Below are positions 6,369-47,883 of a stretch of DNA of 64,000 nt, piece after piece. Both the position numbers and the translations under genes were made by a program. Location of the stretch: contig NZ_CP108513.1 in the NCBI RefSeq assembly GCF_035989285.1, positions 6,696,001 through 6,760,000 of the forward strand, written 5' to 3'. Source of the DNA: Streptomyces sp. NBC_01235 (lineage in GTDB: Bacteria > Actinomycetota > Actinomycetes > Streptomycetales > Streptomycetaceae). The first letter of the stretch is position 1; every line of letters begins with the position of its first letter. The notes below the pieces were generated by a model. The model ran no database searches. It saw only the letters and a list, made by a program, of their open reading frames with translations, and was not told the origin of the DNA.

Positions 6369-6405
6369 CCAAGCTTCAGAGCCGAAGGCCAGGGGGGGAA
6401 CCGTC

Positions 6406-29270: not shown

Positions 29271-29320
29271 GCTTCACCACATGCTTCAGCCGACTTGGTT
29301 CACCACATGGTTCAGCCGAC
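29271..29320. repeat. 26-bp duplication of the korB 3' end
   Basis: TTCACCACATG-TTCAGCCGAC occurs twice in tandem. The second copy contains the stop and last codons of korB. Confidence 0.75.
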
Positions 29321-30427
29321 GACCGTCCAGGTGTCCCCACCCGCCAGCAGCGCCGCCAGATCGCCCTTGCCGTGCTGTTCGATCGCCGTGTCCAACTGGT
29401 CCGCCAGCTGTGTGTCGTAGACCGGCCGCTCGACCGAGCGCAGCACACCGATCGGCGTGTGGTGCAGGGTGTCCGGGTCGGCCAGCCGGGACAGGGCGAA
29501 GGCGGTGGTCGGGGACGCGGCGTGCGCGTCGTGGACCAGCACGTCCGCCGCGTTCTCCGGGGTCACCGTGACGACCTTCAGATCGCCGGTCGCCCTGTCG
29601 CGCACGACCCCCCGCGCGCCTCCCCCACCCTCGGCTTCGCTCGAGCGGGAGGTGCCCCCAGCTCCGAACCTGATCGGCTGCCCGTGCTCCAGTCGGATCA
29701 CCGCTTCCTCGGCCGACTGCCGGTCCTTCAGCGCCTCGAACGCGCCGTCGTTGAAGATGTTGCAGTTCTGGTAGATCTCGACCAGCGCCGTGCCCGGGTG
29801 GGCGGCGGCCTGGCGCAGCACCTCCGTCAGGTGCTTGCGGTCGGAGTCGATGGTCCGCGCCACGAACGACGCCTCCGCGCCGAGCGCCAGCGACACCGGG
29901 TTGAAGGGCGCGTCGAGCGAGCCCATCGGCGTCGACTTGGTGATCTTGCCGACCTCGGAGGTGGGCGAGTACTGGCCCTTGGTGAGCCCGTAGATCCGGT
30001 TGTTGAACAGCAGGATCTTCAGGTTCACGTTCCGCCGCAGCGCGTGGATCAGATGGTTGCCGCCGATGGACAGCGCGTCCCCGTCGCCGGTCACCACCCA
30101 CACGCTCAGGTCGCGCCGGCTGGCGGCGAGCCCGGTCGCGATCGCCGGGGCCCGCCCGTGAATCGAATGCATCCCGTAGGTGTTCATGTAGTACGGGAAG
30201 CGCGACGAGCAGCCGATGCCCGAGACGAAGACGATGTTCTCCTTGGCGAGCCCCAGCTCCGGCATGAAGCCCTGGACGGCCGCCAGGATCGCGTAGTCAC
30301 CGCAGCCGGGGCACCAGCGCACTTCCTGATCGGACTTGAAGTCCTTCATGGACTGCCTGGCCTCGGCCTTGGGGACGAGCGAGAGCGCCTCGATCGTGCC
30401 CGTGCCTTCCGCTCCGGTCTCAGCCAT
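29312..30427 (-). CDS. korB: 2-oxoacid:ferredoxin oxidoreductase, beta subunit
   Basis: A 371-residue thiamine-diphosphate subunit. It has RWCPGCGDYAILAAVQ (conserved Cys pair), FVSGIGCSSRFPYYM, and the TPP-binding GDGDALSIGGNHLIHALRR...NNRIYGLTKGQYSPTS, in which the GDGD and NN residues bind Mg-diphosphate. Together with korA it decarboxylates a 2-oxoacid (2-oxoglutarate or pyruvate) and reduces ferredoxin. Its ATG overlaps the korA stop by 8 nt. The last 100 residues are specific to the actinobacterial form. Confidence 0.95.
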   Translation of the reverse strand: MAETGAEGTGTIEALSLVPKAEARQSMKDFKSDQEVRWCPGCGDYAILAAVQGFMPELGLAKENIVFVSGIGCSSRFPYYMNTYGMHSIHGRAPAIATGLAASRRDLSVWVVTGDGDALSIGGNHLIHALRRNVNLKILLFNNRIYGLTKGQYSPTSEVGKITKSTPMGSLDAPFNPVSLALGAEASFVARTIDSDRKHLTEVLRQAAAHPGTALVEIYQNCNIFNDGAFEALKDRQSAEEAVIRLEHGQPIRFGAGGTSRSSEAEGGGGARGVVRDRATGDLKVVTVTPENAADVLVHDAHAASPTTAFALSRLADPDTLHHTPIGVLRSVERPVYDTQLADQLDTAIEQHGKGDLAALLAGGDTWTVVG

Positions 30428-32366
30428 CGATGGCCTCCTTGAGCGCCGCGGCGAGCTGCTCCGCCTTGAACGGCATACCGTTGACCTGGTTGTACGAGTG
30501 GGCGTCGACCAGGTACTTCGCCCGTACGAGGGTGGCGAGCTGGCCGAGGTTCATCTCGGGGACGACGACCTTGTCGTAGTGCTTCAGCACCGCGCCGAGG
30601 TTGCGCGGGAACGGGTTGAGGTGCCGCAGATGCGCCTGCGCGATGGCCTCGCCCGCCGTGCGCAGCCGCCGTACGGCCGCCGTGATGGGCCCGTAGGTGG
30701 AACCCCAGCCCAGCACCAGGGTTCTCGCCCCGTGCGGGTCGTCGACCTCGAGGTCCGGGACGTCGATGCCGTCGATCTTGGCCTGGCGGGTGCGCACCAT
30801 GAAGTCGTGGTTGGCGGGGGCGTAGGAGATGTTCCCGGTCCCGTCCTCCTTCTCGATCCCGCCGATACGGTGCTCCAGCCCCGGCGTGCCCGGGATCGCC
30901 CACGGCCGGGCGAGGGTCTGCGGGTCACGTTTGTACGGCCAGAAGACCTCGGTGCCGTCGTCCAGCGTGTGGTTCGGCCCCTGCGCGAACTGCACCCGCA
31001 GATCCGGCAGCTCGTCCAGCTCCGGGATGCGCCAGGGTTCGGAGCCGTTGGCCAGGTAGCCGTCGGACAGGAGCATCACCGGGGTCCGGTAGGTGAGCGC
31101 GATCCGCGCCGCCTCCAGGGCCGCGTCGAAACAGTCGGCGGGCGTGCGGGGCGCCACGATCGGCACCGGGGCCTCGCCGTTGCGCCCGAACATGGCCTGC
31201 AACAGGTCGGCCTGCTCGGTCTTGGTCGGCAGACCCGTCGACGGCCCGCCCCGCTGGATGTCCACGACCAGCAGCGGCAGCTCCAGCGAGACGGCGAGTC
31301 CGATGGTCTCGGACTTCAGCGCCACACCGGGCCCGGAGGTGGTGGTGACGGCGAGGGACCCGCCGAAGGCCGCCCCCAGCGCCGCGCCGATCCCCGCGAT
31401 CTCGTCCTCCGCCTGGAAGGTCCGTACGCCGAAGTTCTTGTGCCGGCTGAGCTCGTGCAGGATGTCGGAGGCCGGCGTGATCGGGTACGACCCCAGGAAC
31501 AGCGGCAGATCGGCCTGCCGGGAGGCGGCGATCAGGCCGTACGCCAGAGCCAGGTTGCCGGAGATGTTGCGGTAGGTGCCGACGGGGAACGCCTTCGCCG
31601 CCGGAGCGACCTCGTAACTGACCGCGAAGTCCTCGGTCGTCTCGCCGAAGTTCCACCCCGCACGGAAGGCGGCGATGTTCGCGGCCGCGATGTCGGGCTT
31701 CTTCGCGAACTTCGATCTCAGGAACTTCTCGGTGCCCTCGGTCGGCCGGTGGTACATCCACGACAAGAGGCCGAGCGCGAACATGTTCTTGCTGCGCTCG
31801 GCCTCTTTGCGGGTGAGGTCGAATTCCTTCAGTGCCTCGACGGTCAGGGTGGTCAGGGGGACCGGGTGGAGCTGGTAACCGTCGAGGGAGCCGTCCTCCA
31901 GCGGCGAGGCCGCGTACCCCACCTTCTGCATCGCGCGTTTGGTGAACTCGTCCGTGTTGACGATGATCTCCGCGCCGCGCGGTACGTCACCGATGTTCGC
32001 TTTCAGCGCCGCAGGATTCATGGCGACCAGCACATTGGGCGCGTCACCAGGGGTGAGGATGTCGTGGTCGGCGAAGTGCAGCTGGAACGAGGAGACACCG
32101 GGGAGGGTGCCGGCGGGCGCGCGGATCTCGGCGGGGAAGTTCGGCAGGGTGGAGAGGTCGTTGCCGAACGACGCCGTCTCCGAGGTGAAGCGGTCACCGG
32201 TGAGCTGCATACCGTCACCCGAGTCACCCGCGAACCTGATGATCACCCGGTCGAGACGGCGTACGTCCTTCGTCCCGTCCGGTTTGCGCTGCTCTCCCAC
32301 GACGGCCGCGTCCGCTCCGCCGGTTCCGTCGGCCTGTTCCGCTGGGCTGCTGACCTGACTGGTCAC
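30420..32366 (-). CDS. korA: 2-oxoacid:ferredoxin oxidoreductase, alpha subunit (gamma-alpha fusion)
   Basis: A 648-residue subunit with a fused gamma domain at the N-terminus (IIRFAGDSGDGMQLTGDRF, about residues 35-220) followed by the alpha domain (FLGSYPITPASDILHELSR, TFQAEDEIAGIGAALGAAFG, TTTSGPGVALKSE, IQRGGPSTGLPTKTEQADL). This is the KorA form that works with the short KorB and no separate ferredoxin-domain subunit. The GTG at 32366 follows a GGGAGGTCC site. It produces acyl-CoA, CO2 and reduced ferredoxin. The divergent end carries the sensor system. Confidence 0.95.
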   Translation of the reverse strand: MTSQVSSPAEQADGTGGADAAVVGEQRKPDGTKDVRRLDRVIIRFAGDSGDGMQLTGDRFTSETASFGNDLSTLPNFPAEIRAPAGTLPGVSSFQLHFADHDILTPGDAPNVLVAMNPAALKANIGDVPRGAEIIVNTDEFTKRAMQKVGYAASPLEDGSLDGYQLHPVPLTTLTVEALKEFDLTRKEAERSKNMFALGLLSWMYHRPTEGTEKFLRSKFAKKPDIAAANIAAFRAGWNFGETTEDFAVSYEVAPAAKAFPVGTYRNISGNLALAYGLIAASRQADLPLFLGSYPITPASDILHELSRHKNFGVRTFQAEDEIAGIGAALGAAFGGSLAVTTTSGPGVALKSETIGLAVSLELPLLVVDIQRGGPSTGLPTKTEQADLLQAMFGRNGEAPVPIVAPRTPADCFDAALEAARIALTYRTPVMLLSDGYLANGSEPWRIPELDELPDLRVQFAQGPNHTLDDGTEVFWPYKRDPQTLARPWAIPGTPGLEHRIGGIEKEDGTGNISYAPANHDFMVRTRQAKIDGIDVPDLEVDDPHGARTLVLGWGSTYGPITAAVRRLRTAGEAIAQAHLRHLNPFPRNLGAVLKHYDKVVVPEMNLGQLATLVRAKYLVDAHSYNQVNGMPFKAEQLAAALKEAIDG

Positions 32367-32617
32367 TGAACTGGACCTCCCTCGAGGTGGCTGTCCCGCA
32401 GAGGTCTTCCTGAAGACCCTCCATGGATCAACCCTACGTCTGTAAGGGTCGCCTTCCCTCGGCCATTTCGTATGACAGTCGATGTCCCGACACGGCCCGG
32501 CACCCCCGCTGCCATGATTTCCCGCCCCCCGGCGTCGTCGCGGTAGACGCACCGGCCAGTGAGACGTGGTCACCTTTGGCGCGCGGTCACCTCGACGACT
32601 GGCACAGTGCCACCGAG

Positions 32618-33289
32618 TCAAGAATTGAGGTAGGTGAGAACCGCGAGAACGCGGCGGTGATCCCCGTCACTGGGGGACAGGCCGAGCTTCAGGAAGATGT
32701 TGCTGACGTGCTTCTCCACGGCCCCGTCGCTGACGACCAGCTGCCGGGCGATCGCCGAGTTCGTCCGCCCCTCGGCCATCAGCCCGAGGACCTCCCGCTC
32801 CCGCGGGGTCAGCCCCGCCAGCACGTCCTGCTTCCGGCTGCGGCCGAGCAGCTGCGCGACGACCTCCGGGTCGAGGGCCGTCCCGCCCTGGGCGACCCGC
32901 ACCACGGCGTCCACGAACTCCCGCACCTCGGCCACACGGTCCTTGAGCAGATACCCGACCCCGCGACTGGAACCGGCCAACAGCTCGGTGGCGTACCGCT
33001 CCTCCACGTACTGCGACAACACCAGCACCCCGAGCCCGGGATGCGCTTTGCGCAGCTGTACGGCGGCCCGCACCCCTTCGTCGGTGTGGGTGGGCGGCAT
33101 CCGCACGTCCGCGACGACGACGTCGGGCAGCGAGCCCTCGTCGTCCAGCTCGGTAATCGTCTTGACCAGCGCCTCGGCGTCCCCGACCCCGGCGACGACG
33201 TCATGCCCCCGGTCGGTCAGCAACCGGGTCAGCCCCTCCCGCAACAGCACCGAATCCTCGGCGATGACCACCCGCACCCTGTCCTCCAC
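32618..33289 (-). CDS. NarL/LuxR-family response regulator
   Basis: A 223-residue two-component regulator. The receiver domain has the acidic pocket AEDS at residues 10-13 and the phospho-acceptor D61 in VVVADVRMPP, with the switch Ser and Lys in VLSQYV and YLLKDRV. The C-terminal LuxR helix-turn-helix is LTPREREVLGLMAEGRTNSAIARQL. It is the last gene of a unit led by two histidine kinases. The GTG at 33289 is preferred; another GTG four codons in, following GGAGGA, is possible. Targets unknown. Confidence 0.92.
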   Translation of the reverse strand: MEDRVRVVIAEDSVLLREGLTRLLTDRGHDVVAGVGDAEALVKTITELDDEGSLPDVVVADVRMPPTHTDEGVRAAVQLRKAHPGLGVLVLSQYVEERYATELLAGSSRGVGYLLKDRVAEVREFVDAVVRVAQGGTALDPEVVAQLLGRSRKQDVLAGLTPREREVLGLMAEGRTNSAIARQLVVSDGAVEKHVSNIFLKLGLSPSDGDHRRVLAVLTYLNS

Positions 33290-33515
33290 GCTCCTCGGCC
33301 CCCCAGCCGTCCACCCGTCGGTCGAACCAGTCAAGCATTCCAGCTTCTGGCACCTCTGCACCCGACAACGGTCGGGCCGGGGTCGAGGACGGCGGGAATA
33401 CGGCGACGACACGCTCGATTTCGGCCTTCCGGCCCACGTGACGTGTCGTCGGGGTACGGCATGTCGTCGGAGTACGGGAGTGTTCAGCCCGTGCGGCGTT
33501 CGAGGACGATGCCTT

Positions 33516-34913
33516 TCAGACCCCTTCCGCCCGCCAGGGCAACTCCGCGGTGATCCGTGTGGGCCCGCCCACCGGCGAATCCACCACCAGAATCCCGTCC
33601 ACCGCGTCCAACCGCCCCGCCAGCCCGGCCAGCCCCGACCCCCCGCCGGAGGCATTTGCCCCGCCCACGCCGTCGTCCACGACCTGCAACATCAACCGGT
33701 CCTCCACCCGCCACACATCCACCGAGGCCGACCGGGCCCCGCTGTGCTTGCTGATGTTCTGCAGCAGCTCCGAGACCGTGAAGTACGCGATCCCCTCGAT
33801 CGCCGGAGCCGGCCGCTCCACCAGATCCACCTCCACGCGCACCGGCACCGGGCACCGCGACGCCACCGCCGACAACGCCGCGTCCAGCCCCCGGTCCGTC
33901 AGCACCGCCGGATGAATCCCGCGCGCCAGATCCCGCAGCTCCTGCAGTGCCGTCTTCACCTCGCCGTGCGCGTCGTCCACCATCCGCGCCGCCGCCCGCG
34001 GATCCTCCCGCAGCTTCTCTTTCGCCAGCCCCAGATCCATCGCCAGCGCCACCAGCCGCGCCTGCGCCCCGTCGTGCAGATCGCGCTCGATGCGCCGCAG
34101 GTCGGCGGCCGCCGTGTCCACCACGACCCCGCGGTCCGACTCCAGCTCCACCACCCGCGCGCCCAGCGACGACGGCCCCAGCAGCCCGTGCACCAGCAGC
34201 CGGTCCACCGTCGTCAGCGCCCGCACGATCCACGGCGTGGCCAGCGTGATCAACAGGCCCACCAGCGCCGTCACGGTGATCTCGAACGGGTTGTCGAGGT
34301 AGACGCTGTGCTGCTCGTCGCCGTACAGCTGAAGCCCGCCCTGGCCGCCGTACATCGGGAAGACCCAGAACCACAGCGGATACGTCAGCATGCTCCAGCC
34401 GAACGACCACACGGTCACGGCGACGCCGAAGGAGAAGACCGCCCACGGGAACTGGAGCACCGCGTACAGCGCGTTCCGCCACGACGTGCCGCTCTTGAGG
34501 ACGGCGCCCATCCACGCCATCGGGCCGTTGCCGCGCGGCCGCAGCGGCTCGGGGGAGGCGACCTCCAGACCGAGCAGCCCGCGCGCCCGCGCCCGCTCCA
34601 GCGCCCCGAAGCCCCGGCACGCGGCCAGCCCCGCCGCCAGCACCGGGATGCCGAGGAACGTCACCAGCAGTCCCGCGCCCAGCGACAACATGGAGACCGC
34701 GAAGGTGAACAGCACGACGCCGATCGGCAGACCGAGCAGGACGTAGAGGAGTTCACTCCAGTGGCGCGCCGTGAGCGGCTCACGCAGCCCCGACGGCAAC
34801 AGATGCCGGCGCTCCCCGCCCCGGTGCCCGTCCTGAGATCCGTACTCGTCGTACCGGTCGTACTGGTCGTACTCGTCGTAGTACTGCCCGTACTGCCCGT
34901 ACTGAGTGGCCAT
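33516..34913 (-). CDS. Sensor histidine kinase (HisKA_3 type), copy 1
   Basis: A 465-residue membrane kinase. An odd cytoplasmic leader, residues 2-26, is almost only Tyr, Asp, Gln, Glu and Gly (QYGQYGQYYDEYDQYDRYDE). About four to six hydrophobic segments follow, then the H-box [16 protein letters not shown] with phospho-acceptor H270, the N-box [11 protein letters not shown], and G-boxes DDGVGG and GSGLAGLAGRLD. This is the NarX/DesK-like class that pairs with LuxR-type regulators, so the response regulator about 230 nt downstream is the likely partner. AAAGGAC precedes the ATG. Confidence 0.93.
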   Translation of the reverse strand: MATQYGQYGQYYDEYDQYDRYDEYGSQDGHRGGERRHLLPSGLREPLTARHWSELLYVLLGLPIGVVLFTFAVSMLSLGAGLLVTFLGIPVLAAGLAACRGFGALERARARGLLGLEVASPEPLRPRGNGPMAWMGAVLKSGTSWRNALYAVLQFPWAVFSFGVAVTVWSFGWSMLTYPLWFWVFPMYGGQGGLQLYGDEQHSVYLDNPFEITVTALVGLLITLATPWIVRALTTVDRLLVHGLLGPSSLGARVVELESDRGVVVDTAAADLRRIERDLHDGAQARLVALAMDLGLAKEKLREDPRAAARMVDDAHGEVKTALQELRDLARGIHPAVLTDRGLDAALSAVASRCPVPVRVEVDLVERPAPAIEGIAYFTVSELLQNISKHSGARSASVDVWRVEDRLMLQVVDDGVGGANASGGGSGLAGLAGRLDAVDGILVVDSPVGGPTRITAELPWRAEGV

Positions 34914-35067
34914 CGGCGGCGTCCTTTCTACTCGTTCGTCCCTGCTCGTCGCGCAGCTGTCGATCCGTACCTCCAACCCTCGTCGGCGGCGGGCGCGCGG
35001 ACCATGGAGTCCGTCGGCCTCTTGGACGGGGGGTTTTCCCTACCCCCCACGGTCACCGGCCCGAGGG

Positions 35068-36291
35068 TCACCGGCCCCCACGGTCCCCGGCGCCCCGGTT
35101 CCGCCAGGGCAGTTCCGCGGTCACCGTCGTCGGACCCCCCACCGGCGACTCCACGACGAAGATCCCGTCGACGGCGTCCAGCCGCTCGGCCAGCCCCCGC
35201 ATCCCCGACCCGCCGTCGAGCCGCGCCCCGCCCCGGCCGTCGTCCCACACCTGGATGAGCAGCCGGTCGTCCGCCCGCCACACGTCGACCGACGCCGACC
35301 GGGCCCCGCTGTGCTTGCTGATGTTCTGCAGCAGTTCCGAGACGGTGAAGTAGGCGATGCCCTCGATGGCCTGCGCCGGTCTGGACGTCAGGTCCGCGGT
35401 CACCTTCACCGGCACCGTGCAGCGCGAGGCCACCGAGGACAGCGCCGCGTCCAGGCCCCGGTCGGTCAGGACGGCCGGGTGGATCCCGCGGGCGAGGTCG
35501 CGCAGCTCCTGAAGCGCGAGCTTCACCTCGCCGTGCGCCTCCTCCACCATCGCGGCGACGGCGTCGTCGGCCTGCCCCTCCAGCAGCTTCTCCTTCGCCA
35601 GGCCCAGCCCCATCGCCAGATTCACCAGCCGGGCCTGCGCTCCGTCGTGCAGGTCGCGCTCGATGCGCCGCATGTCGGCCGCCGCCGTGTCGACCACGAC
35701 GCCGCGGTCCGACTCCAGCTCCGCGATCCGCCGCTCCAGCTCGTCGGAGGGGGACAGCAGCCCCCGCACCATCGCCCGGTCGGCGTTGGTCAGACCGCGC
35801 GCCAGAAACGGCAGCACCGGCCACAGCACGAACAACGAGGGCACGACCACGCTGAACGTCAGAATCCCCCAGGGCAGCCGGACGAAGTCGTACAGCACCG
35901 TGCGCCAGGCCACCGGATCCTTCAGCGCCAGCCACATCCGCTGGAAGAAGCCGCCCGCCCTGCGCAGCGGCAGCGGGCTCGGCTCGTCGATCCGCACCCC
36001 GAGCAGCCGACGCGCCCGAGCCCGCTCGAACCGGCCCATCAGCCGGGCCCCGGCCAGCCCCAGCGCCAGCAAGGGGAACCCGACCACCGTGAGGGTCATC
36101 GCGGCGCCGGTGACGATCACCGTCATTACATACGTGAACCCGATCAACGACATCGGCAGGTTCGTCAGAAGGTGCGTGATCTCCTTCCACGTCTGCGGGT
36201 CGTAGGCGAAGCGGGCCGGGGGCGGACGATCGTCGTCATGGTCTGTTCCACCCTGGTGGGAGGAGAATGAGGAGGAATGGGAAGCGGTCAT
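35068..36291 (-). CDS. Sensor histidine kinase (HisKA_3 type), copy 2
   Basis: A 407-residue paralogue of the neighbouring kinase. The kinase halves are nearly identical in places ([13 protein letters not shown] with H215, [39 protein letters not shown]). The sensor halves differ: here a Ser/His/Asp-rich leader, a shorter membrane region and no Tyr/Asp repeat. It is the promoter-proximal gene of the three-gene signalling unit. The ATG has no good ribosome site, so the start is less sure. It is divergent from nuoA, with about 180 nt between. Confidence 0.9.
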
Positions 36292-36393
36292 ATGGGCTAG
36301 CGTGCCGCGCCGCGCGCCGCCGCGCCATGAGGTCACCCGCCTCCGTCGCCTGGGGAAAACCCCCGTCCCGCATCCCAAGGCATGACGGGCTGC

Positions 36394-36474: not shown

Positions 36475-36870
36475 GTGCGGGAACCGACCGTCGAAGTCGC
36501 GGCGGACTACTTCCAGTCCTATTCCGTCGTCGGACTGCTCGCCGTCGTGGGCGTGCTGTTCGTCGCCGTCGCCTTCGGCGCGGGACGCCTGCTGCGCCCG
36601 GTGGTCCCCACCCCCGAGAAGCTCCTGACGTACGAGTGCGGCGTCGACCCGGTCGGCGAGGGCTGGGCCCACACCCAGGTCCGCTACTACGTCTACGCCT
36701 TCCTCTACGTGATCTTCGCGGTCGACTCGATCTTCCTCTTCCCCTGGGCGACGGTGTTCGCCGCAGACGGGTACGGCGCGACGACGCTCGTCGAGATGTT
36801 CATCTTCCTCGGCTTCCTCGCCGTGGGCCTGCTGTACGCATACAAGAAGGGCGTCCTGACATGGACGTGA
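36475..36870 (+). CDS. nuoA: NADH-quinone oxidoreductase subunit A-like protein
   Basis: A 131-residue three-helix subunit. It contains the family sequence [15 protein letters not shown] (quinone-site loop Cys) and [23 protein letters not shown]. It starts at GTG after GGAGCGAGGGGG. It is the first gene of a complex-I operon that has no NADH module. Each following gene overlaps or nearly touches the one before, so translation is coupled. It anchors the peripheral arm to the membrane. Confidence 0.93.
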
Positions 36871-37523
36871 CCCCGGAAGCGATGTCCTCCGAGCCGGTGC
36901 CGGTGCTGCTGCCCGAGCCGAAGCGCCTGGGCGCCCTGGCCCGCCTCGCTCCCGAGCCGATGAAGGTGGTCCTGAACTGGGGCCGCCGCTACTCGCTCTG
37001 GGTCTTCAACTTCGGCCTCGCCTGCTGCGCGATCGAGTTCATCGCCGCGTCGATGGCCCGCCACGACTTCATCCGCCTCGGCGTCATCCCCTTCGCACCC
37101 GGCCCGCGCCAGGCCGACCTGATGGTCGTCTCCGGCACGGTCACGGACAAGATGGCCCCGGCCGTGAAGCGCCTCTACGAGCAGATGCCCGAACCGAAGT
37201 ACGTCATCTCCTTCGGCGCGTGCAGCAACTGCGGCGGCCCCTACTGGGACTCCTACTCCGTGACGAAGGGCGTCGACCAGATCATCCCGGTGGACGTCTA
37301 CGTGCCGGGCTGCCCCCCGCGCCCGGAGGCACTGCTCCAGGGCATCCTCAAACTCCAGGAAAAGATCGCGCGAGAGTCCCTGGACGAGCGCTACGGCCCG
37401 TCGGTCTCCCGCCCGAGCACGTCCCACCCGACCGGCTCCCGCCCGTCGACGGCGGCCCTGCAGAGCGGCCTGGTGCAGCCGCCCCCGGCCGAGTCCCCTT
37501 CGGCGCCGGGGGAGGGGCGATGA
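36861..37523 (+). CDS. nuoB: NADH-quinone oxidoreductase subunit B-like protein
   Basis: A 220-residue subunit that should hold the N2 [4Fe-4S] cluster. Its cysteines are at 55-56 (LACCAIEF), 121 (FGACSNCGG, with an extra Cys at 124) and 151 (VPGCPPRPE), matching the ligand pattern. NuoB and NuoD normally form the quinone site together. No nuoD is encoded here. The last 45 residues are a Pro/Ser-rich tail. It overlaps nuoA by 10 nt and nuoC by 4 nt. Confidence 0.94.
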
Positions 37524-39082
37524 GCACGGTCGGCTGGCTCCCCGCCCCCGCCGAGGAACTCTTCGGCCCGCAGGCCACGGCAGAGGAGTCGTACGACGTC
37601 CTGACGGTGGACGTTCCGCCGGCCTCCTGGACCGCTGCCCTGCGCGTCGCCCGCGACCGCCTGTCCTGCACCTACTTCGACTGGCTGAGCGCGGTCGACG
37701 AACCCGGCACCGGCTTCCGGGTCTCGGCCCACGTGGTGGCCCTGTCCCCGGTCCGCCGCCTCCTCGTGCGCACGACGATCCCTCACGAGGCGCCGACCCT
37801 CTCCTCCGCCGTCGATGTCTACGCCGGCGCCGCCTGGCACGAACGCGAGACGCACGAAATGTTCGGCGTCACCTTCGAGGGTCACCCCGCCCTGAACCAC
37901 CTCCTCCTCCCGGAGACCTTCGAAGGCCACCCCCTGCGCAAGGACTTCGTCCTGGCAGCCCGCGTCGCCAAGGCCTGGCCCGGCGCCAAAGAACCCGGCG
38001 AGTCCGAGCACGGCGGCCCCAAGCGCCGCCAGATGCTCCCCCCAGGCGTCCCCGACCCCAACGAATGGGGCCCCCTGAAAGGCCAACTCCCGCCCGCCCC
38101 GGCCCGCCCGACCCGAGCAGCGGCAGGACGCCCGGCCGGCGACCGCCCGGCCCGCCGCGCCCGCACGACAACAGAGGGCTCAACAAGCCAGACACCACCG
38201 GCGACACCGACCCCGACCGAGGCGACACCGACCGAGGCGACTGCAACAACCCCGTCGGCTTCCTCGACAACTCCCGGCACTCCGGCAGCCCCGGCCGGCC
38301 CCCGCCGCGCCCGGAGCGCGAGCGCGGGCTCGGCGTCCCAGCGGCCGACGGAGGCCACGGACCCGACGGCTGCCGCGGACCCGACGTCCTCGGAATCCGC
38401 GGCACCGCCGAAGCTTCCCGCCGGCCGCCGTGCCCGGAGCGCGGGCTCGGGCTCGGGCTCGGCGTCCCAGCGGCCGGACGGCACGGAACAGCCCGCAGGT
38501 GCTGAGGGAGCCGCGGAATCCGCAAAGACCGAGAGCGCCGCGGAGGCGGAGCCCACGGTTCCCGAGCCGACTCCGCAGCCCCCCGCGGGCCCGCGCCGCG
38601 CGCGTAGCGCCTCCCAGGGCTCGGCCTCCCAGCGCACCCAGCCCCCGACGCCCACTCCCGGCACCCCCACCCGCCCCGCCGCGGCCCCCCGCAGCTCCGA
38701 CGCCCCGTGGCACCACGCCCGCCCGGCGTTCGAAGAGCCGGAGCCGAAGCCGGAGCGGCGGACGGAACCGGAGCCGAAGACGCAGCCGGACTCGGGACAG
38801 AAGCCGGAGTCGGAGTTGAAGCCGGACGCCGGACAGAAGCCGGAGTCGGAGTCGAAGCCGGACGCCGGACAGAAGCCGGAGTCGGAGTCGAAGCCGGACG
38901 CCGGACAGAAGCCTGAGCCGAAGACGGAGTCCGAGTCGCAGTCTGAGGCTGGGCAGGGAACTGAACCCGAGCAGGGTCCGGAGCGGATCAGCGCCGAGCG
39001 GTCGGCCCCGGTCGAGAAGCCGTCGCCCGCCGAAGACACCGAACGCCCCGCCCCCGACGACCCCGCAGGAGGCCCGCAGTGA
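37520..39082 (+). CDS. nuoC: NuoC with long repetitive C-terminal tail
   Basis: A 520-residue protein, about three times the length of NuoC alone. Residues about 1-180 are the 30-kDa subunit domain ([36 protein letters not shown]). The remaining 340 residues are low-complexity Pro/Ala/Thr/Glu/Ser sequence. It holds four copies of a basic motif like RRARSASxGSASQR and about three copies of a 12-residue unit [12 protein letters not shown]. The tail is hydrophilic, with no helix or signal. It is in frame through to a stop that overlaps nuoH, so it is not a missing nuoD. A separate role for the tail is unknown. Confidence 0.9.
38778..38911 (+). repeat. 36-bp in-frame tandem repeat in the nuoC tail
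   Basis: Three near-perfect 36-nt units (38801-38836, 38837-38872, 38873-38908) encode [12 protein letters not shown], preceded by a partial copy. Confidence 0.9.
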
Positions 39083-40047
39083 ACGACGCTCTCGACGTCA
39101 CCCTGCGACTCCTGGTCGTCTTCGTCGTCTTCCTCACCTTCCCCCTGATCATCGGTCAGACCGAGCACAAGGTGATGGCCCACATGCAGGGCCGCCTGGG
39201 TCCGATGTACGCGGGTGGCTTCCACGGCTGGGCCCAGCTCGTCGCGGACGGTGTGAAGTTCGCGCAGAAGGAGGACATCGTCCCCGCGGGCGCCGACCGC
39301 CGTATCTTCCAGCTCGCCCCTGCCGTAGCCCTCCTCCCGTATCTCCTCGTCCTTCTCGCCATCCCCATCGGGCCGGGCGAGGGCGCCGTCGGCCAGGTCC
39401 TGGACGCGGGCATCTTCTTCGTGCTCGCCGTGATGGGCGTCGGTGTCCTCGGCTCGCTCATGGCCGGCTGGGCCAGTGCCAACAAGTTCTCCCTCCTCGG
39501 CGGCCTGCGCACCGCCGCTCAGCTCCTCGCCTACGAACTTCCGATGCTGCTCACCGCCGCCTCGGTGGCGATGGCGGCCGGCACGGTCTCCCTGCCCGGC
39601 ATCGTCGACGCCTTCGAGTGGTGGTGGCTGCCCTGGCAGATCACCGGCGCGATCGTCTTCTTCGTCGCCGGCCTCGCCGAACTCCAACGGCCCCCCTTCG
39701 ACATGCCGGTCGCCGACTCGGAGATCATCTTCGGCGCGTACACCGAGTACACCGGTCTGCGTTTCGCTCTCTTCCTCCTCGCCGAGTACGCCGGAATCGT
39801 CGTCCTGTGCGGCCTGACCACCGTCCTCTTCCTGGGCGGCTGGCACGGCCCTTGGGGCGCCGACGGCCTCGGCTGGGCCTGGACCCTCCTCAAGTCGGCC
39901 GTCCTCGCCTTCGTCGTGATCTGGCTCCGCGTCACCTATCCCCGCCTGCGTGAGGACCAGCTCCAGAAGCTCTCCTGGACCCTCTTCGTCCCCCTCTCCC
40001 TCGCCCAGATCGCCCTCACCGGCGTCGTCAAGGTGGTGATCCAGTAG
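39079..40047 (+). CDS. nuoH: NADH-quinone oxidoreductase subunit H-like protein
   Basis: A 322-residue eight-helix subunit. It has [20 protein letters not shown], the acidic loop [21 protein letters not shown] and [14 protein letters not shown], which are NuoH hallmarks around the quinone entry. It starts at GTG inside the nuoC stop. It connects the peripheral and membrane arms and normally contacts NuoD. Confidence 0.95.
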
Positions 40048-40049
40048 CC

Positions 40050-40610
40050 ATGGCCCCCCTTCCCGGTAGTGGCCTCGCCAAAGGCCTGGCCGTCACCCTC
40101 CGCACGATGACGCGCAAGACCGTCACCGAGCAGTACCCGGACGCCCAGCCCGACCTCCCGCCCCGCACCCGAGGCGTGATCGGCCTGTTCGAGGAGAACT
40201 GCACCGTCTGCATGCTGTGTGCCCGTGAGTGCCCCGACTGGTGCATCTACATCGACTCCCACAAGGAGACGGTCCCGCCCGCCGCCCCCGGCGGTCGAGA
40301 GCGCAGCCGCAACGTCCTCGACCGGTTCGCCATCGACTTCTCCCTGTGCATGTACTGCGGTATCTGCATCGAGGTGTGTCCTTTCGACGCCCTGTTCTGG
40401 TCCCCGGAGTTCGAGTACGCCGAGACCGACATCCACGAACTCACCCACGAACGCGACAAGCTCCGTGAGTGGATGTGGACCGTGCCGGCCCCGCCCGCCC
40501 TCGACCCCGCCGCCGAGGAGCCGAAGGAGATCGCGGCCGCCCGCAAGACGGCCGAGAAGCTGGCGGCGGCCAAGGCCGAGCCGAACGAAGCCCAGGGAGG
40601 GGCATCGTGA
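40050..40610 (+). CDS. nuoI: NADH-quinone oxidoreductase subunit I-like ferredoxin
   Basis: A 186-residue protein with two [4Fe-4S] motifs, [12 protein letters not shown] and [12 protein letters not shown], plus an Ala/Lys/Glu-rich C-terminal helix (about 40 residues). In standard complex I it passes electrons from NuoG to NuoB. NuoG is absent here, so NuoI is the likely entry point from a soluble donor, by inference. The start is 3 nt after the nuoH stop. Confidence 0.94.
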
Positions 40611-41284
40611 CCCTCGCTCAGGCACCCCACGGCTTCCTCTCCCCGACCGGCGTGGAGATCGCCTTCCTCCTCGTCGGCCTGGTCACCTTCGGCGCCGCCC
40701 TCGTCACCGTCACCACCAAGCAGCTGGTGCACGCCGCCCTGTGGCTCGTGGTGACCCTCGGCGGCCTCGCCGTCGAATACCTCCTGCTCACCGCCGAGTT
40801 CATCGCCTGGGTGCAGGTCCTCATCTATGTCGGTTCCGTCGTCGTGCTCCTCCTCTTCGGTCTGATGCTCACCAAGGCCCCCATCGGCCGCTCCCCGGAC
40901 GCGGACTCCGGCAACCGCTGGGCCGCCCTCACAGTCGCCGTCGCCGCGGCAGCCGCCCTGATCTGGGTGGTCGTCGACGCCTTCCGAGCCACCTGGATCG
41001 ACCTGGGCGGCGCGGCCGCCGGCTCGACCGCGGTCACCGGCGCGAGCCTCTTCCAGAACTGGATCCTTCCCTTCGAGGCCCTCTCCGTGCTTCTCCTCGC
41101 GGCACTGGTCGGCGCGATCGTCCTGTCCCGCAAGGCGAAGGCGGAGTCGAGCTCTCCCCCTGTGAACTCCCGAACCATCACCAAGAGTTCCCCACCCGTC
41201 ACGGAGAGTTCCCAAAAATCCGAGGCCTCGTCATCCGCCCGGGACGTCAGGGAAAACCCGGCCGAGCAGGAAGGCGCCCGCTGA
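40607..41284 (+). CDS. nuoJ: NADH-quinone oxidoreductase subunit J-like protein
   Basis: A 225-residue membrane subunit, five helices, with [18 protein letters not shown], the usual NuoJ pi-bulge helix. The C-terminal 45 residues are Ser/Pro-rich and hydrophilic, from a short repeat (SSPPV). It starts at GTG overlapping nuoI and ends in an ATGA overlap with nuoK. Confidence 0.92.
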
Positions 41285-41685
41285 TGCACCTCGCCTATCC
41301 CGCCGTCCTCTCCGCCCTCCTCTTCTGCACCGGCCTGTACGGCGTCCTCGCCCGCCGCAACGCGATCCTGGTCCTGATGTCCGTCGAGCTGATGCTCAAC
41401 GCGGTCAACCTCAACCTGGTCGCCTTCGACGTCTGGCTCAGCAAGGCCGCCGAGGAGACCCTGCACTCCGGCCAGGCCCTGACCCTGTTCACCATCGCCA
41501 TCGCCGCCGCGGAGATCGGCATCGGCCTGGCGATCGTCCTCGCCGTCCACCGCAATCGCGGCACCGCGGACATCGACCGGCTCCGCGACACCGCCGAGGG
41601 CCACGAGAGCCCCGCGGCCGACAGCACCGACAGCGACGCCCCCGCGACCGGAACGGCCGCCGAGAAGGCTGAGGCCACCGCGTGA
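41284..41685 (+). CDS. nuoK: NADH-quinone oxidoreductase subunit K-like protein
   Basis: A 133-residue three-helix antiporter-like subunit. The helix-2 Glu ([19 protein letters not shown]) and helix-3 Glu ([17 protein letters not shown]) needed for proton transfer are both present. The extra 30 residues at the end are hydrophilic ([13 protein letters not shown]). It is coupled to nuoJ and nuoL by overlapping stops and starts. Confidence 0.94.
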
Positions 41686-43676
41686 CCACGACCACCCTCG
41701 CCGTCCTCGTCCCCCTCCTTCCCTTCCTGGGCGCCGCCGCCGGACTGCTCCTGGGCCGCACCGCGCCCGGATTCGTCCGCCCCCTCGCCGTCCTGCCGAC
41801 CCTCGCCGCCCTTGCGCTGGCGGCGGTCGTCGCCGTACGCCAGGGCGGGGACGCCTCCGTCGACGCGGCCACCGAACTGACCCCCACCGGGTCCGTCCCG
41901 GTCGAACTCGCCCTGCACATCGACGGCTTCGCCGCCCTCGTCGCCGTCCTGGTCGGCCTGGTCGCCACCTGCGTGCAGATCTACTCGACCGGCTACCTGC
42001 GCGAGGACCCGCGTTACCCCTCCTACGCCGCGCTCGTCTCCCTCTTCACCTCCGCGATGCTCCTGGTCGTCTACTCCGGCGACCTGATCGTGCTGCTGGT
42101 CGGCTGGGAAGTCATGGGCATCTGCTCCTACTTCCTCGTCGGCCACTACTGGGAGACCCCGGAGGCCCGAGCCGCCTCCATCAAGGCCTTCCTGGTCACC
42201 AAACTCGGCGACGTCCCCTTCCTCATCGGCCTGTTCGCCCTCGCCACCGACGCCGGCTCCTTCGAGATCACGAAGGTCCTCAGCACCGTCGCCCACGGCG
42301 GACTCGACCACCCGACCGTCATCGCCCTGCTGCTCCTGGCGGGCGTGGCCGGCAAGTCGGCGCAGTTCCCGCTGCACACCTGGCTCCCCGACGCGATGGC
42401 AGGCCCGACCCCTGTCTCCGCACTGATCCACGCCGCGACGATGGTCGCCGCCGGTGTCTACTTCATCGCCCGGCTCCTCCCGGTCTTCGAGGCCTCCCAG
42501 GCCGCGATGGTCGTCCTCGCCGTGATGGCCGCCGTCACGATGGTCGGCTCGGGCCTCGCGGCGCTCGCGCAGGACGACATCAAGCGCGTCCTCGCCTACT
42601 CGACGATCGGCCAGCTCGGCTACATGACCGGCGCCCTCGCCGTCGGCGACCGAGGTGCCGCCGTCTTCCACCTCCTCTCGCACGGCGCCTTCAAGGCCCT
42701 GCTGTTCCTCGCGGCCGGCGTGATCATCCACGCCGCCGGCACCAACTCGCTCGCCGCCATGTCCCGGATGAGCCACCTGCGCGACCGCATCCCCGACGCC
42801 TACTGGACGATGACCGTGGCACTCCTCGCCCTCGCCGCGATCCCGCCGTTCAGCGGCTTCTTCTCCAAGGAGTCCGTCCTCGGCGCCGCCGAGCACGTCA
42901 CCACCGGCCACACCGAGCACGCCCCCGGCGCAGCCGGCTGGCTCGTCCTGGTCGCCGGACTGATCACCGCCCTCCTCACCGCCGCCTACGCGATGCGTCT
43001 GTGGCTGCTGGCCTTCCGCGGCCGGGGCGCCGAGGCCCCCGACCACGGCCGCCAGCCCCTGACCATGACCGTGGTGCTGTGGGTCCTGGCCGTGCCGTCC
43101 CTCGCCCTCGGCGGGTTCGCCTACCGCACACTCCCCGACTGGTTCGACGGCAACGACCTCGCGCCGGCCCTCACCACCTCCGTCCTCGGCACGGGCGTGG
43201 CCCTCGCCGGCGGGCTCCTCACGTACGCCGCCTGGCGCCACCTCTCCGGGCCGGCCGCCCGCGTCCCGATCGGTGCGGTCGCCGCCCACCCCGAGGGCGA
43301 CGCGGCCCAAGTCGAGGCCGAGGCCATCGCGACGCACGCGCCCGCCTACGGAGACGTGGCCTCCGCCCCCGACCCGGCGGACCCCGGACGGCTCCTGCTC
43401 GGCCCGCTGCACCGCCACGCCGCCGTCGGCTTCCACCTCGACGCCCTCTACCAGGTGCTGTTCGTCCGCCCCGTCCAGGCCGGTGCGAGCCTCGTACGGT
43501 TCCTCGACCGCGAGGTCGTCGACACCTACGTACGCGGCGCGGGCGCCCTGCCCCGCTGGCTGGGGGCCGCCGTACGGCGCGCCCAGACCGGCAATGTCCA
43601 GACCTATGTGAGCGCGCTGCTCGCCGGCACCGTCGTCCTGGCGGTCGCCGCCCTTCTCGTCGCCTCGGGAGCGTGA
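41682..43676 (+). CDS. nuoL: NADH-quinone oxidoreductase subunit L-like protein
   Basis: A 664-residue antiporter-like subunit with about 15-16 helices. It has [15 protein letters not shown] at the front, [18 protein letters not shown] (key Glu), [14 protein letters not shown] (key Lys), [29 protein letters not shown] and [17 protein letters not shown]. The C-terminal lateral helix region is present. It translocates protons. It starts at GTG overlapping nuoK. Confidence 0.95.
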
Positions 43677-43682
43677 GCAGGC

Positions 43683-45281
43683 GTGATCGATATCAACGAG
43701 TCCGTGATGCAGTTCCTTCTGGCGTTCATCGTGGTCGGCCCGCTCCTCGGCGCCGTAGCCGCTCTCCTGCCGGCCCCGCCCGGACTGAAGGGGAAGTCAC
43801 CCGAGCAGGCCGTGCTGCGGCACGGAGTGACCGTGACCGGGGTGATCCTCATCGCCGCGATCGTCCTCGCCCTCGGCTTCGACCATGACCATCCGTCGAA
43901 GATGCAGGCCAGCACGGACATCAGCTGGATCCCCGCACTCGATGTGCGCATCCACCTCGGCATCGACGGCATTTCCCTCCCCCTGCTGGTCCTGACCGCG
44001 CTCCTGACCTTCCTCTGCGCCCTCTACTCCTACTTCAGGCAGCAACACCAGCCGCTGAAGCCGCAGACCGCGAGCCCGTCCCCGAAGGCCTTCGTCGCGC
44101 TCGTGCTCGCCCTCGAGTCCGGCACCCTCGCGACCTTCGCCGTCCTCGACCTGCTGCTGTTCTTCCTCGCCTTCGAGATGGTCCTCATCCCGATGTACTT
44201 CCTCATCGCCCGCTGGGGCGGCGAGGGCCGGACCCAGGCGGCCTGGAAGTTCATCCTCTTCACACTGCTCGGATCCGTGGTCATGCTGCTAGGCCTGCTC
44301 CTGATCGGAATCAAGGCGGGCACCTTCGACATGGTGGCACTCGCCACTGACAACGGCCGGTCGCTGACCACATCCGTGCAGGTCATCGCCGTTCTGGCGA
44401 TCGGGATCGGGCTCGCGGTCAAGACCCCGATGTGGCCGCTGCACAGCTGGCTGCCCGACGCCCACACCGCCGCCCCGACCGTCGGCTCGGTCCTGCTGGC
44501 AGGCGTCCTGCTGAAGATGGGTACGTACGGGTTCGTTCGGATTCTGCTCCCGGTCGCCCCCGACGGCTTCCGCACCTTCGCGCCCTACCTCGCCGCCTTC
44601 GCCGTCGTCGGGATCATCTACGGATCCCTGGCCTGCCTGGCCCTCGCCAAGCTGGGCGCGAAGGGCGACCTCAAGCGCCTGATCGCCTACTCCTCCGTCG
44701 GCCACATGGGCTTCGTCCTGCTCGGTATCGCGACCATGACCCCGACCGGAGTCAACGGCGCCCTGTTCGCCAACATCGCCCACGGCCTCATCACCGGCCT
44801 CCTCTTCTTCCTGGTCGGAGCCCTGAAGGACCGAACCGGCACGACCGACCTGGACACCCTCGCCGAGCAGACCGGCGCCGCGCTGTACGGCAGGACCCCC
44901 CGCCTCGGCGGCCTCCTCGCCTTCGCCGCCGTCGCCTCGCTCGGACTGCCGGGCCTGGCCGGGTTCTGGGGCGAGATGCTGGCCCTCTTCGGGGCCTTCG
45001 ACCCCGCCGACGACCTCAGCCGCCCCACCTTCCTCACCTTCATGGCGATCGCCGCGTTCGGCACTCTGCTGACGGCCGCCTACCTCCTCGTCGTGGTCCG
45101 CCGCGTCTGCATGGGCACCGTCCCGCAGGACGCCCCACACCTCGCCGACGTGCAGACCTACGAGTTCGCGGCCTGGACCCCGCTCGTCGCCCTCACCGTC
45201 GTCGCCGGCCTCTGGCCGAAGGCCCTCCTCGGCCTGACCGACCCGGCCGTGCAGCAGCTCCTCGCAGGAGGCACCCGATGA
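43683..45281 (+). CDS. nuoM: NADH-quinone oxidoreductase subunit M-like protein
   Basis: A 532-residue antiporter-like subunit. It has GIDGISLPLLVLTALLT, FFLAFEMVLIPMYFLIARWG (key Glu), HSWLPDAHTAAPTVGSVLLAGVLLKMGTYG and SSVGHMGFVLLGI. All NuoM landmarks are intact, so the membrane pump should be functional. The start is GTG, 6 nt after nuoL. Confidence 0.95.
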   Translation: MIDINESVMQFLLAFIVVGPLLGAVAALLPAPPGLKGKSPEQAVLRHGVTVTGVILIAAIVLALGFDHDHPSKMQASTDISWIPALDVRIHLGIDGISLPLLVLTALLTFLCALYSYFRQQHQPLKPQTASPSPKAFVALVLALESGTLATFAVLDLLLFFLAFEMVLIPMYFLIARWGGEGRTQAAWKFILFTLLGSVVMLLGLLLIGIKAGTFDMVALATDNGRSLTTSVQVIAVLAIGIGLAVKTPMWPLHSWLPDAHTAAPTVGSVLLAGVLLKMGTYGFVRILLPVAPDGFRTFAPYLAAFAVVGIIYGSLACLALAKLGAKGDLKRLIAYSSVGHMGFVLLGIATMTPTGVNGALFANIAHGLITGLLFFLVGALKDRTGTTDLDTLAEQTGAALYGRTPRLGGLLAFAAVASLGLPGLAGFWGEMLALFGAFDPADDLSRPTFLTFMAIAAFGTLLTAAYLLVVVRRVCMGTVPQDAPHLADVQTYEFAAWTPLVALTVVAGLWPKALLGLTDPAVQQLLAGGTR

Positions 45282-46816
45282 GCTCCCTGACCCAGCCTTC
45301 GGCCGCCCAGCCCCTGGCCGAGTCGGTGGTCCAGTCCGTCGACTGGCCGGCCATCGCGCCGCCCACCCTCGCGGCGGTCGTCGCACTCGTCGTCCTCGTC
45401 GCCGACCTCTTCGTCGGCGACGACCGCAAGCCGCTCCTCGGCTGGCTCTCCGTCGCGGGCCTCACGGCCTCCACGGCCCTCCTCCTGCCGCTCCTGGACG
45501 GCGACCGCTCCACCTTCTGCCTCACCGGCGACCCGAGCGCGTGCAGCTACACCGCCGACCGCTTCACCCTCGTCATCCAGTTCCTGGTGTTCGGAGGAGC
45601 GCTGCTGGCGGCCCTTCTGTCGGTCACCGCCCTGAAGGACGCGCGCGGGAGACTCCCCGAAGGGGAGTTCTGGTTCCTGCTGTTGTCCTCCGCCGCCGGT
45701 GCCGCCCTGCTGCCCGCCTCCCGCGACCTCGCCACCCTCGTCGTCGCCCTGGAGGTCGCCTCCCTGCCCGCCTTCGCCCTCGTCGGTATCCGACACGGCG
45801 ACCGCAGGTCCTCCGAGGCGGCCCTGAAGTTCTTCCTGTCGTCCGTCACCGCGACCACCGTCAGCCTCCTGGGCATCAGCTTCGTGTACGCGACGACCGG
45901 AACCCTCTACCTCACCCAGGTGGCCGACCGGATCCAGCACGTCGACGGCCAGCTCCACACCCTGGCCCAGACCGGCGTGGTCCTCACCCTCATCGGCTTC
46001 GCCTTCAAGACGGCCGCCGTCCCCTTCCACTTCTGGGTCCCCGACACCTACGTCGGCGCCCCCCTGCCCATCGCCGCCTATCTGTCGGTCGTCGGCAAGG
46101 CCGTCGGCTTCTCCGGCCTCATCCTCGTCACCGTCATCGGCTTCCCCTCGTACGCCGACGTCTGGGGCCCCGCCCTCGCCGCGCTGGCCGCCCTCACCAT
46201 GACCGTCGGCAACGTCGGCGCCCTCCGCCAGCAGGCCACGCGCGCGTACAGCGCCGTACGTCTCCTCGCCTGGTCCTCCGTCGGCCAGGCCGGCTACCTC
46301 CTCGTACCGATCGCCGCCGCCGCGTACTCCGACGACGCCGAGCGCGCGATCGGCTCCACCGTCGCGTACGCCCTCATGTACGCCGCCGTGAACCTCGGCG
46401 CCTTCGCGGTGGCCGCCCTGGTGGGGCGTACGAGCACGACGAACCGGATCACGGACTACCGAGGCCTCTACACCAGAAACCCCCTGGCAGCCCTCATCCT
46501 GGCCTTTTTCCTGCTCTGCCTCGCAGGACTGCCCCCCGGCATCATCGGCCTCTTCGCGAAAGTCACCGTCTTCTCGGCGGCCGTCGACGCGGGCCTCGGC
46601 TGGCTCGCCGTCGTCATGGCCGTCAACGTGGTGATCGCCCTGTACTACTACCTCCAGTGGACGGCCCTGCTCTTCCGCGCCCCCGAGGGCGAGACGGAGA
46701 AGCACCGCGTTCCGGCCCCCCTCACGGCCGCGATCGCCCTCACCGCGGCCCTCGGCGTCGCCCTGTCCGGAGCACCCCAACTGGTCCTGCGCTTCGCCGA
46801 CACCGTCCTCTTCTGA
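45278..46816 (+). CDS. nuoN: NADH-quinone oxidoreductase subunit N-like protein
   Basis: A 512-residue antiporter-like subunit, the last gene of the operon. It has LVVALEVASLPAFALVGIR (key Glu), FAFKTAAVPFHFWVPDTYVGAPLPIAAYLSVVGKAVGF, YSAVRLLAWSSVGQAGYLLVP and a NuoN-like end. It overlaps nuoM by 4 nt. A hairpin terminator follows at 46893. Confidence 0.95.
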   Translation: MSSLTQPSAAQPLAESVVQSVDWPAIAPPTLAAVVALVVLVADLFVGDDRKPLLGWLSVAGLTASTALLLPLLDGDRSTFCLTGDPSACSYTADRFTLVIQFLVFGGALLAALLSVTALKDARGRLPEGEFWFLLLSSAAGAALLPASRDLATLVVALEVASLPAFALVGIRHGDRRSSEAALKFFLSSVTATTVSLLGISFVYATTGTLYLTQVADRIQHVDGQLHTLAQTGVVLTLIGFAFKTAAVPFHFWVPDTYVGAPLPIAAYLSVVGKAVGFSGLILVTVIGFPSYADVWGPALAALAALTMTVGNVGALRQQATRAYSAVRLLAWSSVGQAGYLLVPIAAAAYSDDAERAIGSTVAYALMYAAVNLGAFAVAALVGRTSTTNRITDYRGLYTRNPLAALILAFFLLCLAGLPPGIIGLFAKVTVFSAAVDAGLGWLAVVMAVNVVIALYYYLQWTALLFRAPEGETEKHRVPAPLTAAIALTAALGVALSGAPQLVLRFADTVLF

Positions 46817-47019: not shown

Positions 47020-47883
47020 GTGCACCGCCGGCACAACGGGCTCAGGACCGCAGTACTCCTCGGGGGACTGTCCGCACTCATCATCGTCATCGGCAGCTTC
47101 TTCGGGCGTGCGGGGCTCGTCGTCGCGGTCCTGATCGCCCTCGGCACCAACGCGTACGCGTACTGGAACAGCGACAAGCTCGCGCTACGCGCGATGCGTG
47201 CCCGCCCGGTGAGCGAGTTCGAGGCCCCCGCCCTCTACCGGATGGTCCGCGAGCTCTCCACCCAGGCCCGCCAGCCCATGCCCCGCCTGTACATCTCCCC
47301 GACCGAGGCACCCAACGCCTTCGCGACCGGCCGCAACCCGCGCAACGCCGCCGTGTGCTGCACGGACGGCATCCTGCGCCTCCTCGACGAGCGCGAACTG
47401 CGCGGCGTCATCGGCCACGAGCTCAGCCACGTCTACAACCGGGACATCCTCATCTCCTCGGTCGCCGGCGCGCTCGCCTCCGTGATCATGTTCCTGGTCA
47501 ACTTCGCCTGGCTGATCCCGATCGGACGCTCCGACGACGATGACGGCCCCGGCATCCTCGGCATGCTCCTGATCATGATCCTGGGCCCGCTCGCCGCAAG
47601 CGTCATCCAGCTCGCCATCAGCCGCTCCCGGGAGTACGAGGCGGACGCCTCCGGTGCCCAGCTCACCGGCGACCCGCTGGCCCTCGCGAGCGCCTTGCAT
47701 AAACTGGAGGCGGGCACCAAACAGCTTCCGCTGCCCCCGGAGCCCCGCATCGAGACCGCGAGCCACATGATGATCGCGAACCCCTTCCGCCCGGGCCAGG
47801 GGCTCTCCAAGATGTTCTCGACACACCCGCCGATGGCGGACCGTATCGCCCGGCTCGAGAAAATGGCAGGTCGCCACCAGTGA
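47020..47883 (+). CDS. htpX: HtpX-like M48 zinc metalloprotease
   Basis: A 287-residue membrane protease. It has two N-terminal helices (about 10-50), the zinc site [10 protein letters not shown], two more helices, and the third ligand in [15 protein letters not shown]. It degrades damaged or surplus membrane proteins. The GTG at 47020 has TTGGAGG upstream. It overlaps the YccF-type gene by 4 nt, so they form a pair. Confidence 0.95.

Follow-up and report, generated by a model that had tools for sequence, protein, structure and literature searches.

Within the window analyzed here, a 64,000-nucleotide stretch of Streptomyces sp. NBC_01235 (NZ_CP108513.1, positions 6,696,001 to 6,760,000), positions 36475-46816 of the forward strand carry ten intact open reading frames (ORFs) of a complex I-like operon in the order nuoA, B, C, H, I, J, K, L, M, N. 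This operon is the nuo2 cluster already known in Streptomyces, and its missing NuoD subunit is probably supplied by a dedicated distant gene, nuoD2. All ten products match Nuo families of NCBIfam, although most equivalog cut-offs were missed, as expected for a divergent Nuo copy. The genes are nuoA2 (36475..36870; best E-value 7e-35 against the NuoA families), nuoB2 (36861..37523; also Pfam PF01058), nuoC2 (37520..39082; Pfam PF00329 over residues 30-148 only), nuoH2 (39079..40047), nuoI2 (40050..40610), nuoJ2 (40607..41284), nuoK2 (41284..41685), nuoL2 (41682..43676), nuoM2 (43683..45281), and nuoN2 (45278..46816). A preliminary description of this DNA had recognized the ten genes correctly and had them running with overlapping ends, which holds for seven junctions (1-10 bases of overlap) but not for nuoH2/nuoI2 and nuoL2/nuoM2, which are separated by small gaps of 2 and 6 bases. 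It was also right that nuoC2 overlaps nuoH2 directly (by 4 bases), leaving no space for nuoD, E, F, or G, and that NuoB2 carries the four N2 cysteines (residues 55, 56, 121, and 151). NuoI2 has the eight cysteines of two 4Fe-4S sites plus an extra conserved one, and the iron-sulfur (Fe-S) ligand cysteines are all conserved in 9 of 9 full-type sequences (those with a membrane arm), the window's included. The ninth cysteine of NuoI2 (motif CPDWC) is shared by all 35 sequences aligned, and NuoI1 of the source genome lacks it. NuoC2 consists of a NuoC core of ~150 residues and a low-complexity C-terminal tail (window 37970-39079) of >300 residues, in which Pro, Ser, Glu, and Lys abound and short repeats occur.

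The source genome, a single contig of 11.09 Mb, encodes two NuoD proteins. NuoD1 belongs to a second nuo operon (nuo1), which starts ~62 kb upstream of nuo2 and in which NuoD1, NuoF, and NuoG were confirmed by family, the remaining genes being read from ORFs only. NuoD2 (382 residues) is encoded by a lone gene at C1:6464466-6465614; it falls in the 49-kDa family and is 35% identical to NuoD1 and 95% identical to a Streptomyces canus protein. NuoD, which the preliminary description had noted as missing from the operon, is not absent from the genome but encoded ~267 kb from nuo2, well away from the transcript of the operon. The convergent neighbor of nuoD2 is a member of PF02636 (70.1 bits, cut-off 23.3), which we take to be the family of the arginine methyltransferase NDUFAF7/MidA; the best solved relative of this protein scores only 44 bits. 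The genome search that had been proposed for nuoD and nuoE-G returned, besides the two NuoD, five NuoF-like genes, one of them within the nuo1 operon, where NuoG also lies. The other four NuoF-like proteins have open frames of 536-742 codons (G000:C1:9161590, 10630682, 7971728, and 4049913). Two known enzyme types were considered for nuo2 at this point: a 14-subunit complex I (NDH-1), which has NuoE, F, and G encoded with the complex, was rejected because the operon has neither room for these genes nor any such ORF, and for an F420H2 dehydrogenase (Fpo), the FpoF-type subunit (PF04432) gave no match in the source genome.

NuoD2, a second NuoB, and the methyltransferase largely come and go together. 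Matches of the NuoD2 type, sorted by hand as those whose alignment reaches the end of the query without the gap of NuoD1, were found in at least 80 of 196 genomes of the class, a lower bound since strongly diverged copies would not stand apart from NuoD1 by score. Two or more NuoB occurred in 81 genomes and the methyltransferase in 77; NuoD2 was accompanied by two or more NuoB in 77 and by the methyltransferase in 74, and 113 had neither NuoD2 nor the methyltransferase. Fisher tests against NuoD2, with kinship ignored, gave p values of 1.2e-42 (methyltransferase) and 2.0e-45 (NuoB). NuoD2 was found with a single NuoB in G029, G111, and G169, and without the methyltransferase in G100, G110, G120, G138, G156, and G182. 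Conversely, among the matches listed, NuoD2 was lacking in three genomes with the methyltransferase (G059, G066, and G146) and in four with two NuoB: G003, where both are equally like NuoB1; G004, a 93% complete genome in which a nuoB2-C2-I2 locus is present; and G098 and G180, whose NuoB/D-like genes are distant. The loci of the last two (L103 and L104) hold distant NuoB/NuoD and NuoL- or NuoM-like sets of 24-36% identity, possibly another complex I relative. Within one family that shows both states (f15), all three genes are present in 8 of 18 genomes and none in the other 10, which points the same way as the class-wide association. At the level of the genus, NuoD2 and two NuoB are found in 19 of 19 genomes, with a median dN/dS of 0.11 for nuoD2 (171 pairs).

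The position of nuoD2 in relatives suggests how the gene came to be separated. In 34 flanks of nuoD2 from the class (L037-L070, some short), there are no nuo1 or nuo2 genes save weak L/M-like matches in L039 (G024), where NuoL/NuoM-like genes 29-40% identical to nuo2 lie beside nuoD2 at ~3900-8300. The methyltransferase gene lies within the flank in 27 of these 34 loci, in several directly upstream, and the surrounding block resembles what are presumably folate, pantothenate, and NAD genes. It is likewise in the flank (≤8 kb) of nuoD2 in 72 of the best 80 named GTDB loci, six of the other eight being short or ending at a contig edge; the locus of Kibdelosporangium banguiense, also among the 80, has the methyltransferase gene and nuoD2 as a pair facing the end of a nuo2 operon. 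Outside the class, where 197 genomes of the phylum were searched and 20 loci taken, a NuoD with Trp in place of the usual quinone-site Tyr sits between nuoC2 and nuoH2 in 16 of 16 loci (L158-L173). All eleven genes are present in 15 of these, L162 having no K match, and several adjoin another nuo operon; of the remaining loci, the short contig L174 carries a NuoD of the Trp type, and L175-L177 are Tyr-type. The methyltransferase family is found in 9 of 9 genomes of L165-L173 (in G210, G314, and G224 it follows nuoN2 at a distance of a few hundred bases), in 0 of 7 of L158-L164, in one of the three Tyr-type genomes, and in none of eight class genomes without NuoD2. A tree separates Trp-type NuoD2 (50 rows) from NuoD1 and the Tyr-type (26 rows) with a split support of 100/100. 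Outside the class the NuoD2 type sits in 11-gene operons, and it is simplest to suppose that nuoD2 moved out of the operon within the class itself.

One genome of the class, G111 (listed as 100% complete), bears directly on the independence of nuo2 from the normal complex I. Alongside nuoA2-N2, it has single matches for NuoD (NuoD2), NuoB, and NuoH, none for NuoF, and a methyltransferase gene whose frame is open over the aligned stretch. In this genome nuo2 cannot draw on a further NuoD or on NuoF. Given G111, the co-inheritance, and the 11-gene operons outside the class, NuoD2 is best regarded as a dedicated paralogue and not as the NuoD of the normal complex I, and the earlier suggestion that the complex borrows NuoD from another locus is well supported. 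Judged from sequence, the system in the window would be an 11-subunit complex I-like enzyme, free of the N-module, whose D gene has moved away, with ten subunits encoded in the operon and NuoD2 provided in trans.

NuoD2 differs from NuoD1 at two sites of note. Arg57 (the site of NDUFS2 Arg85) and Trp80 (the site of Tyr108) are present in 67 of 67 NuoD2 sequences (18 Streptomyces, 9 full-type including the source genome, 16 operon-type, and 24 arm-less), whereas the corresponding residues are Thr and Tyr in all 23 NuoD1 sequences that could be read (L090, the 24th, could not). NDUFAF7 is described as dimethylating NDUFS2 Arg85, modelled ~7 Å from N2 (PMC3829151), and accounts of this residue place it near N2 and report Thr in its stead in Thermus (PMC3829151, PMC8042128). 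The Tyr is described as binding the quinone head group (PMC8119997). Yarrowia Y144F/W/H forms are said to retain considerable activity with short quinones (PMC9120487), and Trp therefore need not abolish quinone reduction. Lineages with the membrane arm conserve both the quinone histidine and the stretch of NuoB presumed to face NuoH. Owing to the Trp, nuo2 counts as a variant of complex I on the grounds of gene content and descent alone. Both this signature and the arm-less form described below look new, the Trp signature and the arm-less form being unnamed in the titles and abstract openings of the open-access literature searched.

Many relatives appear, from their gene content, to have kept only the four genes of the iron-sulfur arm (NuoB, C, D, and I) after loss of the proton pump. 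At 26 loci, nuoB2-C2-I2 were the only genes of the nuo2 set found, with at least 2 kb downstream of nuoI2 covered in 19; weak NuoN matches upstream mark the end of the normal nuo operon in some of them. The membrane arm was judged by NuoH, with NuoA and NuoJ-N uncounted: 26 arm-less genomes (those of 25 of the loci and G103) and G169 each have one NuoH, whose 37-45% identity to NuoH2 fits the normal copy. For comparison, six full-type genomes have two or three NuoH matches and G111 has one; the eighth comparison genome, G026, has two short nuoH2 pieces between nuoC2 and nuoI2 (L097, ~2900-3250) besides other NuoH matches, and these pieces are probably a trace of membrane-arm loss. Among the nine full-type loci, L094 has its genes spread over >14 kb, and neither L094 nor L098 has an A2 match. 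All 26 arm-less loci retain the complete set of Fe-S cysteines, four for N2 and eight in NuoI. Meanwhile, identity to the full-type consensus falls from 0.93 to 0.15 in the part of NuoB2 that presumably faces quinone and NuoH, and from 0.59 to 0.07 in the N-terminal helix of NuoI2. In NuoD2, the quinone loop scores 0.95 in full-type, 0.91 in operon-type, and 0.54 in arm-less sequences, and the Arg-Trp segment 0.89, 0.72, and 0.75, respectively; the roles of all these segments are assumed from known structures. Arm-less NuoD2 has lost the second histidine in 5 of 24 sequences and the acid at the Asp139 site in 17 of 24, and a structure model of one of them keeps the fold. These proteins form one clade (100/98), nested among the full-type ones when the tree is rooted on NuoD1. 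No methyltransferase of the family was found in six arm-less genomes, and a seventh (G147) gave a weak partial match only. Tentatively, and with somewhat more doubt than conviction, we suggest that in a large actinobacterial clade the Q-module may have become a soluble Fe-S enzyme without a membrane arm, with a NuoD of the Trp type and in most cases an arginine methyltransferase of its own, passing low-potential electrons (perhaps from a 2-oxoacid:ferredoxin oxidoreductase) to an acceptor other than the quinone tunnel; Streptomyces nuo2 would then be the form that still carries the pump.

The neighborhood of nuo2 offers a candidate source of electrons. On the minus strand lie genes for a 2-oxoacid:acceptor oxidoreductase, korA (alpha subunit; 30420..32621, TIGR03710 above cut-off, divergent from nuo2) and korB (beta subunit; 29312..30427, TIGR02177 at 248.7 bits, just below the cut-off of 261.9); the korA ORF is counted from its first start, and the true coding start is probably near 32309. 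That the Kor substrate is 2-oxoglutarate comes from literature on SCO4594/SCO4595 of S. coelicolor. Between korA and nuo2 are genes for a response regulator and two sensor kinases of the AbrC3, AbrC2, and AbrC1 type (32618..36378, minus strand; Pfam domains), named by position from the S. coelicolor locus as given in PMC9739823. Some relatives have korA and nuoB2 side by side in divergent orientation, and korA lies ≤2.6 kb from nuo2 in 18 of 35 loci. On the other side, an HtpX protease gene (47020..47883, plus strand; NCBIfam HtpX above cut-off) directly follows nuo2 in the window and in part of the relatives.

The explanation that we favor, with moderate confidence in it as a whole, joins nuo2, NuoD2, and the methyltransferase in one system. 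It builds on the subunit set, NuoD2 as co-inherited partner, the position of nuoD2 outside the class, the Arg/Trp signature, and the Fe-S ligands, from which we infer donor, acceptor, pumping, and methylation. The operon has no NADH module, and both clusters of NuoI2 are retained. Electrons would enter at NuoI2 from a soluble donor of low potential; reduced ferredoxin is the most likely one, perhaps supplied by the neighboring KorAB. Electrons would then pass through the two 4Fe-4S clusters of NuoI2 to N2 in NuoB2 and on to menaquinone, in a pocket formed by NuoB2, NuoD2, and NuoH2 with Trp in place of the usual tyrosine, while the J-N arm would pump protons. The methyltransferase beside nuoD2 would most likely dimethylate Arg57 of NuoD2, next to N2. 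As its other option, the preliminary description had named an alternative quinone module fed at NuoI by a soluble donor. The first half of this agrees with the altered quinone site (Tyr to Trp); the donor of the second half is a candidate.

Several points weigh against this explanation. Ferredoxin is a reasonable candidate donor and its link to KorAB, drawn from gene order, a guess: KorA is also present in 84 of 116 genomes without NuoD2, G111 gave no KorA match at an E-value of 1e-50, and the proximity of KorA to nuo genes may be the inherited order of a conserved block, which leaves the donor weakly supported. Arg57 is kept in seven operon-type genomes (L158-L164) and six arm-less genomes where no methyltransferase of the family was found, the association counts are uncorrected for kinship, and the Trp could mean an acceptor other than quinone.

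This last point is shared by an alternative that we consider unlikely, though one to be taken seriously: NuoB2, C2, D2, and I2 would be an electron-transfer unit in their own right, with a real acceptor other than the quinone pool, and the membrane arm of Streptomyces would be an ancestral attachment shed by other lineages. It would account for the loci with only B2-C2-I2, for the single NuoH in the 26 such genomes tested, for the retention of 12 Fe-S cysteines while contact segments decayed, and for Trp in all NuoD2 types. However, the conserved quinone histidine and NuoH-facing NuoB segment argue for quinone chemistry where the arm is present, and the considerable activity ascribed to Yarrowia Y144W (PMC9120487) removes some of the weight of the Trp. 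Improbable in our judgment is the hybrid proposed for S. coelicolor in PMC9239103, in which nuo2 products swap into the normal complex I (NuoD1 plus NuoEFG) and NuoD2 is unneeded or belongs to one of several mixed forms. The two sets do mostly coexist, with two or more NuoB in 77 of the at least 80 NuoD2 genomes, but NuoD1 differs from NuoD2 at the Arg and Trp sites, and in G111, where nuo2 and NuoD2 occur together with an open frame for the methyltransferase, there is no match to a further NuoB, NuoD, or NuoH, nor to any NuoF. That nuo2 is a silent or unassembled remnant, as its function being called unclear (PMC9239103) and the absence of membrane-arm genes in many relatives might suggest, is very improbable given the intact frames in the window, the presence of NuoD2 and two NuoB throughout the genus, the low dN/dS of nuoD2, and Streptomyces data said to suggest a single operon (PMC3765725).

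If the favored explanation of nuo2 with NuoD2 and the methyltransferase holds, it gives a genome-level answer to what supplies NuoD to a Streptomyces complex whose function is called unclear in print. It also presents a natural Tyr-to-Trp swap at a residue central to complex I coupling models, and a group of genomes in which nature seems to have parted the electron-transfer module from the pump. In addition, nuo2 becomes a candidate acceptor for actinobacterial 2-oxoglutarate:ferredoxin oxidoreductase, an enzyme whose acceptor in Mycobacterium tuberculosis was not identified by its discoverers, according to PMC2773412.

The window cluster is one instance of the Streptomyces nuo2 gene set in print (SCO4599-SCO4608), which PMC3765725 gives as nuoA2, B2, D2, and H2-N2, contiguous except nuoD2 and probably one operon, and for which transcripts or proteins are reported in S. 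coelicolor (PMC3897704, PMC9739823). The published lists, in the excerpts on which we drew, include no NuoC, and one account describes nuo2 as without NuoCDEFG and L, whereas the window has both nuoC2 and nuoL2. Those excerpts make no mention of the Arg/Trp signature or of a link to the methyltransferase, and they describe neither an 11-gene operon outside the class nor an arm-less form. The two CxxC motifs that form the NiFe site of group 4 hydrogenases are absent from NuoD2, and such a hydrogenase was rejected, although the NuoD fold is shared with formate hydrogenlyase and Mbh, whose chains (7z0s and 6cfw) NuoD2 matches by sequence. As in the Chloroflexi 2M complex I described in PMC7117926, where nuoBCDI are encoded apart from the membrane arm, modules are separated here; membrane-arm genes are still reported there, whereas the arm-less genomes have no second NuoH. 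Similar in composition is the 11-subunit complex I-like enzyme of Desulfitobacterium hafniense, which according to PMC11238625 has the same 11 subunits, no NuoEFG, and an unsettled donor, with ferredoxin suggested among others; the class members examined differ in having nuoD at a separate locus, and their NuoD2 has Trp at the site of the usual complex I Tyr. Finally, the NDUFAF7/MidA system is paralleled by a nuoD2 neighbor in PF02636 and by the target Arg kept in NuoD2, as in NDUFS2 Arg85, with the difference that here the predicted enzyme is linked to a stray NuoD whose paralogue, NuoD1, has Thr.

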